IMG/VR virus record: IMGVR_UViG_3300032268_000661
Span: 1-25,730 of that record
Direction: 5' to 3' (one strand)
DNA length: 25,730 nucleotides
DNA from: a virus
Of this stretch, positions 447 through 6,064 are shown one piece after another. How positions within the stretch are numbered: the stretch's first letter is position 1; every line of letters begins with the position of its first letter. A program made the position numbers and the translations under genes. A model generated the notes under the pieces. It ran no database searches. It was not told the DNA's origin and saw only the letters and a program-made list of their open reading frames with translations.

Positions 447-1169
447 ATGCAGCTCAACAAACAACCAATCGAAAAACGTATCTCCCGGGCTGATGGTTGC
501 CTGGAAGTGCATAGCAGCTTCTACACCATCCAAGGTGAAGGCCCGTTCTGCGGAACCCCTTCCATGTTCGTGCGCCTTGCGGGCTGCAACCTCCAGTGTC
601 CGTTCTGTGACACGGAATACAGCGACAAGCGGACCCTGCTTGCACCCGAAGAAATACTGGCGCACATTATTGACACGATGCCCGTGGCAATTTCCGGCCT
701 TGTGGTTATCACCGGCGGTGAACCTTTCCGCCAGAACCTGACCCCGCTGTTGGAGCTACTAACGGCCCGGGGTTACTACGTCCAGATCGAAACGAATGGG
801 ACGTTGGAACCATCCACCTTCATTTATTCTTGGGACATCAGCAAGAGGCAGGGTGCCTACATTGTTTGCAGCCCCAAGACAGGCAAGGTTCATCCGTTTG
901 TCTGGGCCCAAGCGTGCTGCGCCAAGTATGTGATGGCCGCTGAAGATGTAGTCAGCGACGGTCTGCCTGTCACCGCACTGGGCCACACCGCGAACCCGCG
1001 CCTTGCCCGACCGCCTATCCTGTGGCCCAACCACATGATCTATTTGCAGCCCATGGACGCGCAGGACTACGAAGAGAACCAGCGCAACATCCAAGCGGTC
1101 CGCGAGTCGTGCATGGAGCACGGCTACATCCTGCAACTGCAAATCCACAAGCTGATTGGAGTAGAATGA
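447..1169 (+). CDS. queE: 7-carboxy-7-deazaguanine synthase (QueE)
   Basis: Radical SAM enzyme that converts 6-carboxy-tetrahydropterin to 7-carboxy-7-deazaguanine (CDG), third step of the preQ0 pathway. The 240-aa protein has the family hallmarks in order: FYTIQGEGPFCGTPSMFVRL (substrate and SAM region, about 25-44), the CX3CX2C iron-sulfur motif GCNLQCPFCDT (C47, C51, C54), and the SAM-binding ITGGEP (88-93) followed by a QIETNGT strand. The ATG at 447 is preceded by GGAGGG at 438-443. It is the first gene of the operon, and its TGA overlaps the queC ATG. The stretch after the ETNGT strand (SPKTGKVHPFVW, CCAKYVM) fits the usual QueE C-terminal half. Family assignment is firm. In phages this gene normally supplies a DNA-modification precursor rather than tRNA queuosine. 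Confidence 0.95.
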   Translation: MQLNKQPIEKRISRADGCLEVHSSFYTIQGEGPFCGTPSMFVRLAGCNLQCPFCDTEYSDKRTLLAPEEILAHIIDTMPVAISGLVVITGGEPFRQNLTPLLELLTARGYYVQIETNGTLEPSTFIYSWDISKRQGAYIVCSPKTGKVHPFVWAQACCAKYVMAAEDVVSDGLPVTALGHTANPRLARPPILWPNHMIYLQPMDAQDYEENQRNIQAVRESCMEHGYILQLQIHKLIGVE

Positions 1170-1957
1170 TGAAGAAAGCACTTGTCGTCCTTTCGGGCGG
1201 GCAGGACTCAACGACCTGTCTTTTCTGGGCGTTGCAGTTCTATGACGAGGTCCATGCGATCACGTTCGACTACGGGCAGCGGCATCGAATTGAGGTCCAG
1301 GCTGCAATGCAGGTCGCGCAGATGGCTGGCGTTATGGACCGGCACGAAATCTGCAAGGTAGGCGACCTGCTTGACAGCACCAGCCCGCTGACCAGTGGGA
1401 ACGAGCTGGAGCAATACACCGACCCGGAACAGATGGAAGCGGTGATTGGCGACCGGCGCGAGAAGACGTTTGTCCCCATGCGTAACGCTCTGTTCCTGAC
1501 GCTCGCCGCCAACCGCGCTGAGGCGCATGGAATCACGGACATCATTACTGGCGTCTGTCAGATGGACAATGCGAATTACGACGACTGCCGGGAGGTGTTT
1601 ATCCGGGCGACCGAAGCCTACATCAACACGGCGCTCGGGCATGACCACAGAGGCACGCCGCCTATCCGGATTGTGACCCCGCTGATGCACGCGACCAAGG
1701 AACAGACGGTTCACATCGCGTTTGCGAATCCGAAGTGCTGGGAAGCGTTGGCCTACAGCCACACCAGCTACGACGGCAAGTATCCGCCCACCGACATGAA
1801 CCATGCCAACGTCCTGCGGGCCGATGGGTTCGCAAAGGCCGGGAGGCCCGACCCGCTTGTGGTGCGGGCTTGGCGGGATGGTTTGATGGAGCTTCCGTCG
1901 ACCGACAACTACAGCCGGGAGTCCATGGTTGACGCCGGGTTCGGTTGGGCGGAGTAA
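1166..1957 (+). CDS. queC: QueC-like 7-cyano-7-deazaguanine synthase, zinc-site Cys replaced
   Basis: ATP-dependent enzyme of the adenine nucleotide alpha-hydrolase fold that turns CDG first into the amide (ADG) and then the nitrile preQ0. The 263-aa protein has the PP-loop SGGQDSTT (10-17), TFDYGQRH (33-40), the FVPMRNALFL segment and TGVCQMDNANYDDCR. In the C-terminal zinc site of known QueC proteins (TCYNG...CGxCxxC-LR), the aligned residues here are TSYDG (S201) and TDMNHAN (T209, N212, N215) followed by VLRADGF. All four zinc-ligand Cys are therefore replaced by Ser, Thr, Asn and Asn, although the surrounding fold and the spacing are kept. The start is ATG 1166 (ATGA overlap with queE) or ATG 1169, both behind GGAG at 1158-1161. 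The enzyme may be active without zinc, may stop at the amide, or may use another acceptor. Confidence 0.88.
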   Translation: MMKKALVVLSGGQDSTTCLFWALQFYDEVHAITFDYGQRHRIEVQAAMQVAQMAGVMDRHEICKVGDLLDSTSPLTSGNELEQYTDPEQMEAVIGDRREKTFVPMRNALFLTLAANRAEAHGITDIITGVCQMDNANYDDCREVFIRATEAYINTALGHDHRGTPPIRIVTPLMHATKEQTVHIAFANPKCWEALAYSHTSYDGKYPPTDMNHANVLRADGFAKAGRPDPLVVRAWRDGLMELPSTDNYSRESMVDAGFGWAE

Positions 1958-1960
1958 CCC

Positions 1961-2968
1961 ATGGAACAAGGTGCAGGCAACCAGTTGACGGACGCAGCCG
2001 GTGTGAAATGGATGGACATGCTGAGCGGGATATTGAACTGCTCGCTCGGGCATGGTTCTTCCGTTGTGTCAGAAGCACTTCGCGAGGTCGCAAATAGCGG
2101 CCTCGTTAACAGCTATGACAAGACAACCCTTAACGCGCAAGCGTTGATGTCCCTTCTTGGGGAATACGACAACCGATACACCTGGAAGCTACTGAATACG
2201 GGCGCTGAAGCGGTTGAGCGGGCGGTGCAACTGTGGGCAGCGGTGGTTGGCGGTCGCCCTGTAGTCGCGGTCCTCAAGGACAGCTTCCACGGGAAGAGCA
2301 TCACCATGTCCGGCATCCGGTATGACGTTCCATGGGGCAACCCGTTTGACGTTCTTACCATTGACCCGGATGGGGTCGTGCCCCATTTCGACATGCTGTT
2401 CTTTGAACCCGTCAAAGGGTGGAACGGTGAGCGTCCAGACGAAGAGAAGCTTCTGGCGTTGTGCAACGAGCGGTCCGCCATACTGGTAGCGGACGAGATG
2501 ATTACCGGCTTCGGGCGGTGTGGTCAACGCTTCCTGAGTAAGCACGCAGACATGATTATTTCCGGGAAGGGTCTGGCACAAGGGGTTCCGCTTGCGGTCC
2601 TAGGTGCACGACACGCAATCAGCCCAGCGAAGTTTGCCATCGGGTGGAACACAACCTGTGGCGGGAACAACCTGTCAGCGACGGTGGGCCTGCATGTCCT
2701 GCGCCACCTGATGCAGCACGAAGGGGAGTTGCGGAACAAGGCGGGATGGATAGAAGACCGCCTTGTGAGCATGGGGTTCAGCGCAATGGGGGCGCTGGGC
2801 TTTAAGACCATGAAGCGTCCGCATTCAGAAATGCGACCCGTGTTCGAACAGAACCGTGTAATCGCATCCTGGCATGACCCGTTCCTGCGGGTCGGCCCCT
2901 CCTTTGCAACCGTAAAGCGGGACATGGACCACCTGGAAGCTGTTCTCAGACTGGCGGAGATGCGATGA
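1961..2968 (+). CDS. Class III PLP-dependent aminotransferase-like protein
   Basis: Fold type I PLP enzyme related to glutamate-1-semialdehyde aminomutase and omega-aminotransferases. Class III motifs appear in order: SLGHGSS (28-34), LLNTGAEAVERAVQ (77-90), DSFHGK (107-112), LVADEMITGFGRCG with the PLP-ring aspartate D178, SGKGLAQG with the Schiff-base lysine K203, and NTTCGGNNLSA. The key catalytic residues are present, so it should be active. At 335 aa it is short against the usual ~430, lacking much of the N-terminal region and part of the C-terminal domain. It starts 4 nt after queC with GGAG at 1951-1954, and its stop overlaps the next ATG. It is not part of the known preQ0 pathway. Its place in the operon suggests that it makes or processes an amine used to decorate the deazaguanine. 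The substrate is unknown. Confidence 0.85.
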   Translation: MEQGAGNQLTDAAGVKWMDMLSGILNCSLGHGSSVVSEALREVANSGLVNSYDKTTLNAQALMSLLGEYDNRYTWKLLNTGAEAVERAVQLWAAVVGGRPVVAVLKDSFHGKSITMSGIRYDVPWGNPFDVLTIDPDGVVPHFDMLFFEPVKGWNGERPDEEKLLALCNERSAILVADEMITGFGRCGQRFLSKHADMIISGKGLAQGVPLAVLGARHAISPAKFAIGWNTTCGGNNLSATVGLHVLRHLMQHEGELRNKAGWIEDRLVSMGFSAMGALGFKTMKRPHSEMRPVFEQNRVIASWHDPFLRVGPSFATVKRDMDHLEAVLRLAEMR

Positions 2969-3975
2969 TGGCTGTTATCGGAATTGACATTGACGGCACC
3001 CTGTCCAAGGGCGGGGAGTGGCAGGGCGGTGACTATATCCCTGCACCGGATGCGCGGATGGCAGCACTGGTGGCGGAGCTTGCGGCACGGGGTCACCGCT
3101 TGTTCGCGTGGACCTGCCGCGCTGACTACGTTGTGTCCAAGTGGCTGGCGGAGCACAACCTCATCCAGTATTTCGAAGGGGTGAACTACTCGCCCTATCC
3201 CACCGAGAGTGGCAAGGCGAGCTTTGACTTCTACATCGGGGACGAGGCAATTCGCTGGGACGAAAACCCGAAGCGCATCCTGGAGCTGATCCACATTAAC
3301 TCTGTTGGCAAAGGCCCCGCTGACTTTGACCGGGACCATTTCTTCAGCAGCCACAACCCGAGACCATACCTCGCAGGGGTGGGCGTTGCGTATGTGGACC
3401 AGTTTGAAGAGCACTGGAAAACAGCATGGACTAGGCACCAGCAGAGCGGGAAGACTATCGCGTTCCTGACCATCTGTTCCCATGCGAAACCCTACAGCAA
3501 GTCCTTCATCCACACGTCTATCCGGGCAGCGCTGTTCCGGGAAGGCTACCTTGGGGCGTGCGACTACATCCACATCTCCAACGCGGGAATCATCCCTGCG
3601 AGTGCGGAAATGGACTACCCTTTCAACGCCTACGATTGGAACGGTGACCTCTGCACCCCGGAGGTGAAGCAATACCACATCGAAGCAATCAAGCGCCGCT
3701 TCACTGAGTGGCTGCGGATGAAAGATTGCAGCTACGACCGCATCGTCATTTATCTGCGCGAGGGTGGCAACACCATCGGAGCAGTCCGGGCAGCTCTACA
3801 GGAGTTTGAGTCCGGCGCGAGTCACCGCCCGTGGTCGACCAAAGTGACGGTCGTTGCTGCATCCGCAGAAGAAGAACATTATCCGCAGTTTGTCCAGACC
3901 CGTGACCCGGACGACTGTCTCACCAGTGCAGGCAACCTGCATCATCTTACTGTTGCAATCGGAGGACACAAATGA
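2965..3975 (+). CDS. HAD-like domain fused to ArcS-like (DUF5591-type) domain
   Basis: Two-domain protein of 336 aa. The N-terminal part (about 1-115) is HAD-superfamily-like: motif I GIDIDGTL with D8 and D10, FAWTCR (47-52), a lysine at K84 and FYIGDEAIRWDE (89-100). It resembles small HAD phosphatases. The C-terminal part carries FLTICSHAKPYSKSFIH (167-183), which fits the archaeosine synthase ArcS signature C-X3-KPY-X2-S-X2-H exactly (C171, K175-Y177, S180, H183). It is followed by ISNAGIIPASAEMDYPFNAY, matching the ArcS segment with the SPlGlVPrElE...YPa..YD pattern. ArcS attaches lysine to preQ0 in archaeal tRNA. Here the likely target is preQ0 in DNA or the free base. No PUA RNA-binding domain is visible. 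The gene is coupled to both neighbours by ATGA overlaps. The ArcS-like call rests on the motif; the substrate is inferred. Confidence 0.75.
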   Translation: MMAVIGIDIDGTLSKGGEWQGGDYIPAPDARMAALVAELAARGHRLFAWTCRADYVVSKWLAEHNLIQYFEGVNYSPYPTESGKASFDFYIGDEAIRWDENPKRILELIHINSVGKGPADFDRDHFFSSHNPRPYLAGVGVAYVDQFEEHWKTAWTRHQQSGKTIAFLTICSHAKPYSKSFIHTSIRAALFREGYLGACDYIHISNAGIIPASAEMDYPFNAYDWNGDLCTPEVKQYHIEAIKRRFTEWLRMKDCSYDRIVIYLREGGNTIGAVRAALQEFESGASHRPWSTKVTVVAASAEEEHYPQFVQTRDPDDCLTSAGNLHHLTVAIGGHK

Positions 3976-4445
3976 CATACCGTTCCAGCAAGACCTACGG
4001 CCACGAGATTGGTCTCTCGTGTTGCTTTCGTCAGTGGCGGGCCCAGAGCCATTGCCGCTTCCTGCATGGATACGCGCTGTCCGTGCATGTTGAGTTCGAA
4101 GCTACCGAGCTCGACCACCAGAATTGGGTTGTCGACTTTGGTTCGCTGAAGTCTTTCAAGGGCACCCTGGAGGACACGTTTGACCACAAGACGCTCGTCG
4201 CCGAGGATGACCCCAAGCTCCAGTGCTTCGTTGCATTGGAAGAGATTGGCCTGGCCGACATTGTGATCGTGGAGGCGGTAGGCTGCGAAGCCTTTGCGAA
4301 GCTAATCTACGACTACACCGAGGTCTGGCTGAAGGACAACGGATACGCACCCCGCGTCCGCTGCCACCACATCACGGTCCGTGAGCATGGGGCCAACAGC
4401 GCCAGCTTCTACGCACCCCTGAGCGTGGAGAACATCGCGCAATGA
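3972..4445 (+). CDS. queD: QueD-like 6-carboxytetrahydropterin synthase family protein
   Basis: Member of the PTPS/QueD family, expected to convert dihydroneopterin triphosphate to 6-carboxy-tetrahydropterin. The 157-aa protein has HCRFLHGYALSV (C28 as the catalytic Cys, H32 as a zinc ligand), WVVDFGSLK (52-60), FDHKTL (70-75, catalytic His) and VREHGANSA near the end. Compared with standard QueD, the first zinc His (AAH) is replaced by the FRQWR region and the second His of HGH is Tyr (Y34). Only one of the three canonical ligands is clearly kept. I recall this FRQWR/HGY form from alphaproteobacterial QueD-like proteins, so it looks like a subfamily rather than a broken gene. A CDG decarboxylase role (DpdL-like) is an alternative. 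ATGA overlaps join it to both neighbours. Confidence 0.85.
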   Translation: MTYRSSKTYGHEIGLSCCFRQWRAQSHCRFLHGYALSVHVEFEATELDHQNWVVDFGSLKSFKGTLEDTFDHKTLVAEDDPKLQCFVALEEIGLADIVIVEAVGCEAFAKLIYDYTEVWLKDNGYAPRVRCHHITVREHGANSASFYAPLSVENIAQ

Positions 4446-5044
4446 CCCAGGGCTTCAAGAGTGCAGCGCACATTGCCCGCCGGGAGCGGATGTCCAAAAG
4501 CATCCGCGAGCTGTTACTGGACATTGAAGACGTCCACATCCATGACGATCTGCGGGGTGGCTTGGTTGAAACCCCGGACAGGGTTGCCAAGGCATGGGAG
4601 TTCTGGACCAGTGGCTATGACATGGACCCAGCCGAGACCTTGAAGACGTTCGAAGATGGTGCGGAGGGTGTGGACGAGATGGTCGTGGTGAAAGACATCC
4701 CTGTCTATTCACACTGCGAGCACCACATGGCAGCAATCTTCGGGATCGCCACCATCGGCTATCTGCCCGACAAGCGCATCGTGGGGCTGAGCAAGCTGTC
4801 ACGTCTGGTAAACGTCTATGCTCGGCGGTTGCAGGTGCAGGAGCGCATGACCTGCCAGATTGCGGATGCTATGATGCAGCACCTTGCCCCGCTGGGCTGC
4901 GGTGTGGTCATCAAGGCGCGGCATATGTGCATGGAGTCGCGGGGCGTCTGCCAGCAGGGGCATCACACTGTGACCAGCGCCTTGCGAGGTATGTTCAAAG
5001 AAGACCCCATCGTTCGAGCTGAATTTTTGCAGCTTGCACGGTAG
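4442..5044 (+). CDS. folE: GTP cyclohydrolase I
   Basis: Converts GTP to 7,8-dihydroneopterin triphosphate, the first committed step of pterin and 7-deazaguanine synthesis. The 200-aa length is normal for bacterial FolE. Visible motifs are ETPDRVAKAW (43-52), VYSHCEHHMAAIFG with zinc ligands C92 and H95, GLSKLSRLVNVYARRLQVQE, and ARHMCMESRGV with the third zinc ligand C163, then HTVTSALRG. All catalytic and metal residues are present. The start ATG overlaps the queD stop (ATGA). It is the last gene of the deazaguanine operon and is followed by an intrinsic terminator at 5066-5092. A phage-borne FolE would raise precursor supply above the host level when the phage must modify many DNA guanines. 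Confidence 0.96.
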   Translation: MTQGFKSAAHIARRERMSKSIRELLLDIEDVHIHDDLRGGLVETPDRVAKAWEFWTSGYDMDPAETLKTFEDGAEGVDEMVVVKDIPVYSHCEHHMAAIFGIATIGYLPDKRIVGLSKLSRLVNVYARRLQVQERMTCQIADAMMQHLAPLGCGVVIKARHMCMESRGVCQQGHHTVTSALRGMFKEDPIVRAEFLQLAR

Positions 5045-5062
5045 CTCGCCACCTGCTATACT
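5034..5062 (+). promoter_or_regulatory. Sigma70-type extended -10 promoter for the dpdA operon
   Basis: TTGCAC at 5034-5039 (-35, two mismatches to TTGACA), a 17-nt spacer, and TATACT at 5057-5062 preceded by TG at 5054-5055 (extended -10, TGnTATACT). The -35 overlaps the end of folE. The predicted transcript start, about 7 nt downstream of the -10, falls inside the terminator stem at 5066-5087. It would drive dpdA, the clamp-like gene and the polymerase. Confidence 0.6.
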
Positions 5063-5065
5063 ACA

Positions 5066-5092
5066 GGGAGCGTCTTCGGACGCTTCCTTTTT
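5066..5092 (+). terminator. Intrinsic terminator with UUCG tetraloop after folE
   Basis: GGGAGCGTC (5066-5074) pairs with GACGCTTCC (5079-5087) as a 9-bp stem with one G-U pair, closed by a C(UUCG)G tetraloop and followed by five Ts (5088-5092). It ends the queE-folE operon. It lies just downstream of the predicted promoter, so it would also be the very 5' end of the dpdA transcript. Confidence 0.85.
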
Positions 5093-5104
5093 CGAGGGGG
5101 ACTA

Positions 5105-6064
5105 ATGGACATCTATATGGCAGCGGTCTATTCAAACAGCTACATGCCTGGAATGAACCGATACGTGAAGCTGACAGAACGCGAACGAGATGTTGTGGCC
5201 ACACTGCCCAACATTCTAGAGTCCTGGCACTACGTCGGGAAGCAAAGCTTCGTGGACCATATGAGGAAGAACCAAGCGCGCATATTCCTTGACAGCGGTG
5301 CCTTCTCCGCCTACTCCCTGGGCGTTGAGTTGTCCGTGAGCGAATACTGTGATTATATTGTTCGGAACCAAGACATCCTAAGGGTGGAAGGGGATGACAT
5401 TATGGCGTCGGTGTTGGACGGTATTGGTGACCCGTTGCAGACGTGGCGCAACCAGAACGAAATGGAAATGCGGTTCAAGGCGGACTACGGTTTGAACCTG
5501 AGGCCCCTGCCCTGCTTCCACGCGGGTGAGGACGAACGGTATCTGGAGCACTACGTTGCCAACTACGAATACATCACACTTGGCGGGATGGTGGGCAGCT
5601 CCACGAAGCAGTTGATGGTCTGGTTGGACCGCATCTGGGACCGCTTCCTGACCGACGGTGCAGGGAACCCGAAGCTGAAGGTGCATGGGTTCGGGATTAC
5701 CTCGGTTCCCATTATGAACGAATATCCGTGGTATAGCTGCGACTCATCCTCCTGGATCCAGTCGGCAGCATTCGGGTCCGTTATTATGCCCGGGGTGAGC
5801 GCCAATGCACCCGCGTGGCCCATTAACGTGTCCGAAAAGTCCCCAAGCAGACACGACGCCAACCAGCACATGACAACCCTGTCCCCGGTTGAGGTGGACT
5901 ACCTGTTCCAAGTGCTGGAAAAGAATGGATTTACCTACGAGCGCCTGTCCTCCGTCTACGAGTCCCGCGCCGCCTACAACCTGTGGGCGTTCGGCGTAGT
6001 CAACGCAATGATCAACGCGTCCGGAAATGAACGGTTCAAGGCGCAAGTTAGGGAGCTGTTCTAA
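5105..6064 (+). CDS. dpdA: DpdA-type DNA deazaguanine transglycosylase
   Basis: TGT-like enzyme that exchanges guanine in DNA for a 7-deazaguanine base. The 319-aa protein shows the phage DpdA pattern: ARIFLDSGAFSAYS (58-71; D63 corresponds to the DSGG aspartate of TGT), LDGIGDP (104-110), ITLGGMVGSS (157-166, base-binding loop), VHGFGITS (193-200) and SCDSSSW (211-217) with the likely nucleophile D213. There is no TGT zinc-site or PUA domain, as expected for DNA-directed members. The start at 5105 follows GAGGGGG (5094-5100). It is the first gene of the second operon, and its TAA overlaps the next ATG (TAATG). Its presence shows that the adjacent preQ0 genes serve DNA modification rather than tRNA. 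I cannot assign the DpdA subgroup by eye. Confidence 0.9.
   Translation: MDIYMAAVYSNSYMPGMNRYVKLTERERDVVATLPNILESWHYVGKQSFVDHMRKNQARIFLDSGAFSAYSLGVELSVSEYCDYIVRNQDILRVEGDDIMASVLDGIGDPLQTWRNQNEMEMRFKADYGLNLRPLPCFHAGEDERYLEHYVANYEYITLGGMVGSSTKQLMVWLDRIWDRFLTDGAGNPKLKVHGFGITSVPIMNEYPWYSCDSSSWIQSAAFGSVIMPGVSANAPAWPINVSEKSPSRHDANQHMTTLSPVEVDYLFQVLEKNGFTYERLSSVYESRAAYNLWAFGVVNAMINASGNERFKAQVRELF

Follow-up and report, generated by a model that had tools for sequence, protein, structure and literature searches.

What does a QueC protein make once all four of the cysteines that hold its zinc have been replaced? The locus described here raises this question because the literature treats QueC as a zinc enzyme, defined via a C(x)8CxxCxxC motif, and states that zinc is required for its function (PMC13329287).

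The locus and its missing zinc ligands

The window, by which we mean the whole stretch of DNA analysed, a 25.7 kb virus record, contains a one-strand run of genes (447-6064, + strand) in the order queE, queC, aminotransferase, HAD-ArcS fusion, queD, folE and dpdA, followed downstream by a clamp gene and then a DNA polymerase gene. QueE, the radical SAM CDG synthase, is encoded at 447..1169 (phrog_2076, E 6e-57; Radical_SAM) and the QueC-type 7-cyano-7-deazaguanine synthase without zinc cysteines, of 262 aa, at 1169..1957 (PF06508, E 8e-48; TIGR00364, 158.4 bits). Then come a class-III aminotransferase, nearest to the acetylornithine/LysJ group (1961..2968; PF00202, E 1e-29; argD, E 1e-28), in which alignment located the PLP lysine motif GKGLAQG, and a protein with an HAD-like N-terminal domain (DIDGTL) fused to the ArcS core domain DUF5591 (2965..3975; PF17884, E 3e-9; ArcS NF040592, E 3.5e-7, below the cut-off). 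The run is completed by a QueD of the HGYAL type (3972..4445; PF01242, E 1e-18; phrog_2389), by FolE, GTP cyclohydrolase I (4442..5044; PF01227, E 1e-65), which retains its zinc ligands SHCEHH and HMC, and by DpdA, the DNA-guanine transglycosylase (5105..6064; phrog_887, E 1.5e-86; NF041059 DpdA, E 6e-4). Both canonical QueC neighbours, queD and queE, accompany the window QueC, and the run also includes folE and dpdA.

Counting from the ATG at 1169, the zinc positions of the window QueC are occupied by S200 (1766-1768), T208 (1790-1792), N211 (1799-1801) and N214 (1808-1810), and the C(x)8CxxCxxC motif of the canonical enzyme is absent. Residue numbers in the preliminary description were one higher because they were counted from a second in-frame ATG at 1166, which gives a protein of 263 aa. 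The former zinc loop (residues 197-218, SHTSYDGKYPPTDMNHANVLRA; 1757..1822) was delimited from alignments, from the censuses and from the coupling of positions 211 and 214 described below. The C-terminal loop of the window protein is SHTSYDGKYPPTDMNHANVLRADGF, and its cysteine-bearing counterpart in sister phages is HTCYAGEYPPCGKCHACVLRA; the loop of these sisters, HTCYAGxxPPCGKCHACVLRA, is identical in length to that of the window, so the placement of S200, T208, N211 and N214 is unambiguous. No alternative cysteines filling the zinc site of the window QueC were found in the alignments. The preliminary description had stated that all four zinc ligands were replaced in a protein whose SGGQDS pyrophosphate loop was perfect; both statements were confirmed, the latter by sequence and alignment (residues 9-14, 1193..1210), and no other cysteine had moved into the site.

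The protein passed the TIGR00364 equivalog cut-off of 150.3 bits. Judged from its sequence, it is a QueC variant and falls outside the canonical members, since the zinc motif, one of their hallmarks, is absent. The main text of a 2026 survey of the family does not describe a Cys-less QueC form (PMC13329287).

Occurrence and descent of the Cys-less form

QueC genes were taken from viral contigs, one-per-species genomes and named phages, and near-copies were removed to leave 188 sequences. All four zinc cysteines were present in 117 of these and none in 71, with no sequence carrying one to three, a pattern far beyond chance. Every cellular QueC had all four (77/77), these being drawn from the best 80 matches of a genome scan, so that rare Cys-less cellular forms could exist. 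The Cys-less loops were of two kinds: 60 followed the pattern S/A - T/V/I - N/D - N/S/T, which is the window's kind, and 11, which are short-tailed, the pattern D - x - N - S/T. Among named phages, the window's kind was found in MMDA13, HD01, RHEph06, Iggy, R5C, Pan1, ART, ply2008005c, Me-ZS1, ZHS, Erebus and 83AMN, and the cysteines were retained in CAjan, 9g, HVTV-1, nt-1, CRB2 and TA17A. The second, short-tailed Cys-less group, whose loops are of the form TDYNG...WGYGxxDNPAS (L098, L104, L105, L106, L109, L114, L116, L117 and L118), apparently represents an independent loss. Vibrio phage GR7B (L204, 3977-5567) has two adjoining QueC-family genes, the second of which departs from the first in its Cys pattern and may serve another function.

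The preliminary description held that the loop had diverged under selection and had not decayed. This was borne out by the all-or-none pattern and by comparison of the window with its nearest relative, L016, for which the QueC gene gave a dN of 0.145 and a dS of 1.16, and the 22 codons of the loop showed eight synonymous and no amino-acid differences. Across the 60 sequences of the window's kind, similarity in the loop was 0.74 as against 0.56 for the remainder of the protein.

A core tree of QueC was then built without the loop and the tail. Cys and Cys-less sequences interleaved on it, with 6 to 8 changes of state in 90% of bootstrap trees, a number that is rough, as the tree is weakly resolved in places (33/79 inner branches open). 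A single origin of the Cys-less form was rejected on this tree (p-AU 0.0002). Core identity was equal within and between Cys states (0.53, 0.56, 0.53) and the C-terminal module was distinct. This looks like one enzyme with an exchangeable cassette, or like repeated loss in the same form. The C-terminal tail with its LPxTxNY motif (1823..1954 in the window, from the alignment census) was present in 56/60 Cys-less sequences of the window's kind, in 1/40 phage Cys forms and in 0/77 cellular forms (among the best 80 genome matches). The sole Cys form with this tail, L018, may be an intermediate.

Product of the variant enzyme and the fate of the zinc site

The S, G, G, D and S of the SGGxDS loop were invariant in 188/188 QueC, and the substrate motifs of the window protein are Y35 Q37 H39 E42, VPMRN (102-106), Y137 D139 C140 and the loop tyrosine Y201. 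In E. coli QueC, Y35, R99, Y131 and Y189 are essential (PMC13329287); their window counterparts, Y35, R105, Y137 and Y201, are kept, and across the 71 Cys-less sequences these positions were retained with at most one exception each. The tyrosine and aspartate that recognise the deazaguanine in Cap9 and in B. subtilis QueC (PMC13279940) are also retained in the window protein (Y137 and D139).

A QueF homologue with nitrile-reductase motifs was found in 12/57 Cys-less and 5/21 Cys phage loci, although truncated loci could hide further ones, and in R5C and Pan1 it lies two genes from QueC; no link between QueF and Cys loss was seen (Fisher p 0.77). QueF is the preQ0 reductase and acts on the nitrile of preQ0. 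The DNA of phage Iggy, whose QueC has a Cys-less loop (STNN), is reported as containing dPreQ0 (Olsen 2023, cited by PMC11008142 and PMC11945000). Phage hosts usually encode their own QueC, so the preQ0 in Iggy DNA, or that used by QueF, could be host-supplied. We know of no Cys-less QueC that has been assayed singly, and PMC6884629 states that phage QueC proteins had not been tested one by one. Because the catalytic set is intact, the tree is interleaved, QueF keeps company with the variant and Iggy DNA is reported to carry dPreQ0, we infer that preQ0 is the output of Cys-less QueC. We consider it quite likely that the protein is a zinc-free variant that still produces preQ0 and in which a polar helix cap, together with a tail, has taken the place of the zinc knuckle. 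Cys-less QueC would convert CDG to preQ0 using two ATPs and ammonia, the preQ0 would feed DpdA, DpdA would swap the base into phage DNA and the modified base would shield that DNA against restriction.

The preliminary description had instead suggested a different output, either a stop at the amide or the passing of an activated CDG to an amine, and neither was borne out by the retained catalytic residues, the equal frequency of QueF in the two states and the dPreQ0 reported for Iggy. If Cys-less QueC halted at the amide, DpdA would insert ADG in DNA; dADG is known from phage DNA (PMC8306585, PMC6884629), and without its metal site QueC might be disabled in its second step, the dehydration. However, this is unlikely given that an intact QueF accompanies Cys-less QueC in those 12 loci, that ArcS-type domains, a family which uses the nitrile, occur in the window, L014, L016 and L015, that the Iggy report names dPreQ0 and that the catalytic set is unchanged.

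The AF2 model of the window QueC (pLDDT 96.8; VIA Z 22.5 to B. subtilis QueC, 3bl5) contains a helix at 212-223, with position 211 at its N-cap and 214 as its third residue. These two positions were fully coupled in the 60 Cys-less sequences of the window's kind (N-N 32, D-S/T 28, mixed 0; Fisher p 1e-17, with kinship among the sequences ignored). Helix caps are typically formed by N, D, S and T, and in the model the coupling fits a helix-cap pair. A polar cap would have replaced, in one piece, the zinc knuckle at the start of this C-terminal helix, with N211 (or D) at the N-cap, N214 (or S/T) three residues further and the added LPxTxNY tail accompanying it. The cap and tail would have assumed the structural holding role of zinc, and the Cys-less loop would bind no metal. 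It might instead hold a cation through the oxygens of Ser, Thr, Asn and Asp in place of thiolates, given that Asp often occupies 211 and that Mg or Ca could be bound by oxygen ligands; this seems, if anything, less likely still than a stop at the amide, since position 200 is occupied by Ala in 19/60 of these sequences and position 208 by Val, Ile or Leu in 16/60, residues with no possible side-chain ligand.

Zinc saving across the whole pathway was also considered and rejected, as FolE keeps its zinc ligands and the type of QueD is independent of the state of QueC. The QueD type SCCFRQWRAQSHCRFLHGYAL, which is without two of the three usual zinc histidines and is that of the window (3972-4445) and of many loci, accompanies a Cys-less QueC in 36 loci and a Cys QueC in 6, and does not track the Cys state. 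In L003, L006, L010 and L015, FolE is fused to an N-terminal phosphoribosyltransferase-like domain (AVPRGGIP...DDLIDSG).

The aminotransferase and HAD-ArcS genes form a rare pair, lying within or close to phage deazaguanine clusters. The window shares it with L014, L016 and two Synechococcus phages; in wider searches of viral contigs, only L014 and L016 had the pair besides the window. Its coordinates are 1961-3975 in the window, 7747-9707 in L014, 7789-9770 in L016 and 9976-11990 in L040. The DUF5591 core of the HAD-ArcS protein passed the Pfam gathering score (37.3 vs 26 bits) and failed the full-length ArcS equivalog (29.2 vs 440 bits), being a core only. It is homologous to the ArcS-like VPFG_00169 of Vibrio phage nt-1, its C171 lies within CSHAKPYSKS, and the CxxxxPYSxS motif of the core is common to L015 and L108. 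Stand-alone ArcS cores lie at 7773-8489 in L015, directly behind a Cys-less QueC, and at 3655-4308 in L108. The AF2 model of the fusion was poor (pLDDT 65.5) and its fold matches were weak, so that no more than a HAD-like N-terminal domain is read from it. The ArcS family acts on preQ0: the T. kodakarensis enzyme attaches lysine to preQ0 nucleotides (PMC11298593), after which a radical SAM partner yields archaeosine. In L016, whose 60.6 kb contig may be incomplete, queE was the sole radical SAM gene found. It is a fair guess that the pair decorates preQ0 further, to give an amine-conjugated base in DNA. The combined proposition, that zinc in QueC is structural and not needed, its knuckle having repeatedly been exchanged for cap and tail, and that the pair makes an undescribed amine-conjugated 7-deazaguanine in DNA, is tentative, and we regard it as possible rather than probable.

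A dependence of Cys loss on these neighbours, as would be seen in a Cys-less clade tied to ArcS-like or aminotransferase genes, was not observed: the Cys-less sequences are not one clade (AU p 0.0002) and most of their loci lack both genes. The pair accompanies a four-Cys QueC in Synechococcus phage Yong-L2-223, whose host is Synechococcus sp. PCC 7002, and is therefore separate from the zinc question. Similarly, it is very unlikely that Cys-less QueC is a ligase that hands activated CDG to an amine or a protein in the manner of Cap9 or QatC. The fold is the same as that of Cap9 (VIA Z 21.2) and an aminotransferase adjoins the window QueC, but that gene is absent from most Cys-less loci and is paired with a four-Cys QueC in Synechococcus phage L040, and Cap9 and QatC themselves retain the zinc cysteines, so that loss of zinc is not a mark of such a role (PMC13279940, PMC13329287). 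Least likely of all is a degenerate QueC gene with preQ0 supplied by the host, where QueC is common, in view of the strong purifying selection on the gene, with its unaltered loop, and the retention of nearly every catalytic residue in 71 sequences.

Comparison with known systems

A natural, widespread, all-or-none zinc-free form whose other catalytic residues are all intact permits a direct test of what zinc does in QueC, for which the close sisters L018 (Cys) and L011 (Cys-less) provide a pair. Many phage preQ0 synthases would be overlooked or misinterpreted if the zinc motif guided their annotation.

Cap9 of type IV CBASS and QatC, which the preliminary description had offered as parallels, share the QueC fold and the ATP loop with the window protein. 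They act on protein N-termini and keep their zinc cysteines, whereas the window QueC has none, and as parallels for Cys loss they fail (PMC13279940, PMC13329287). Since both have new roles and yet keep the cysteines, loss of zinc is no sign of such a role. The hallmarks of Cap9, a CE(x)6CxxCxxCxD motif and a CD-NTase neighbour, are absent; the window loop has no Cys and its neighbours are queuosine genes. In QatC, the zinc cysteines are C334, C354, C357 and C360, and the Tyr-Asp pair is changed to two Thr (PMC13279940). The window protein has Y137 and D139 in place of these threonines, is 262 aa long with no long N- or C-terminal extensions, and has neighbours other than qat genes. It likewise gave no match to the N-terminal GATase (glutamine amidotransferase) domain expected for Gat-QueC, and its QueC domain begins at residue 3. 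The Gat-QueC of phage 9g did not restore queuosine to E. coli delta-queC, yet it supports formation of the base in delta-queC cells (PMC6884629).

ArcS and the ArcS-like protein of nt-1 share the DUF5591 core and the CxxxxPYSxS motif with the neighbouring gene of the window, which differs from ArcS in its HAD-like fusion and in having the core only. The C-minus forms of ribosomal proteins L31 and L36 offer a precedent, having lost a structural zinc knuckle in concert while keeping their function. Those, however, are paralogues induced by zinc shortage, whereas here FolE keeps its zinc ligands and zinc saving is not evident.

Pseudomonas phage Iggy and Sphingomonas phage MMDA13 have QueC proteins with the same Cys-less STNN loop as the window protein, in a similar gene cluster. 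Unlike the window, neither phage has the aminotransferase and HAD-ArcS pair, and Iggy QueC (L039, 7001-8062) has an additional C-terminal domain of ~90 residues that the window QueC lacks. With canonical QueC (PF06508 cluster 1, TIGR00364; 3BL5, 2PG3) the window protein shares the fold, SGGxDS, YxQxHxxE, VPxRN, YxDC, K177, the loop Tyr and the queE-queC-queD-folE cluster; it differs in having S-T-N-N for C(x)8CxxCxxC and an extra C-terminal tail of ~40 residues. The Cys-less form is real, under selection and widespread, a zinc-free variant of an enzyme already known, and its output is most likely unchanged.
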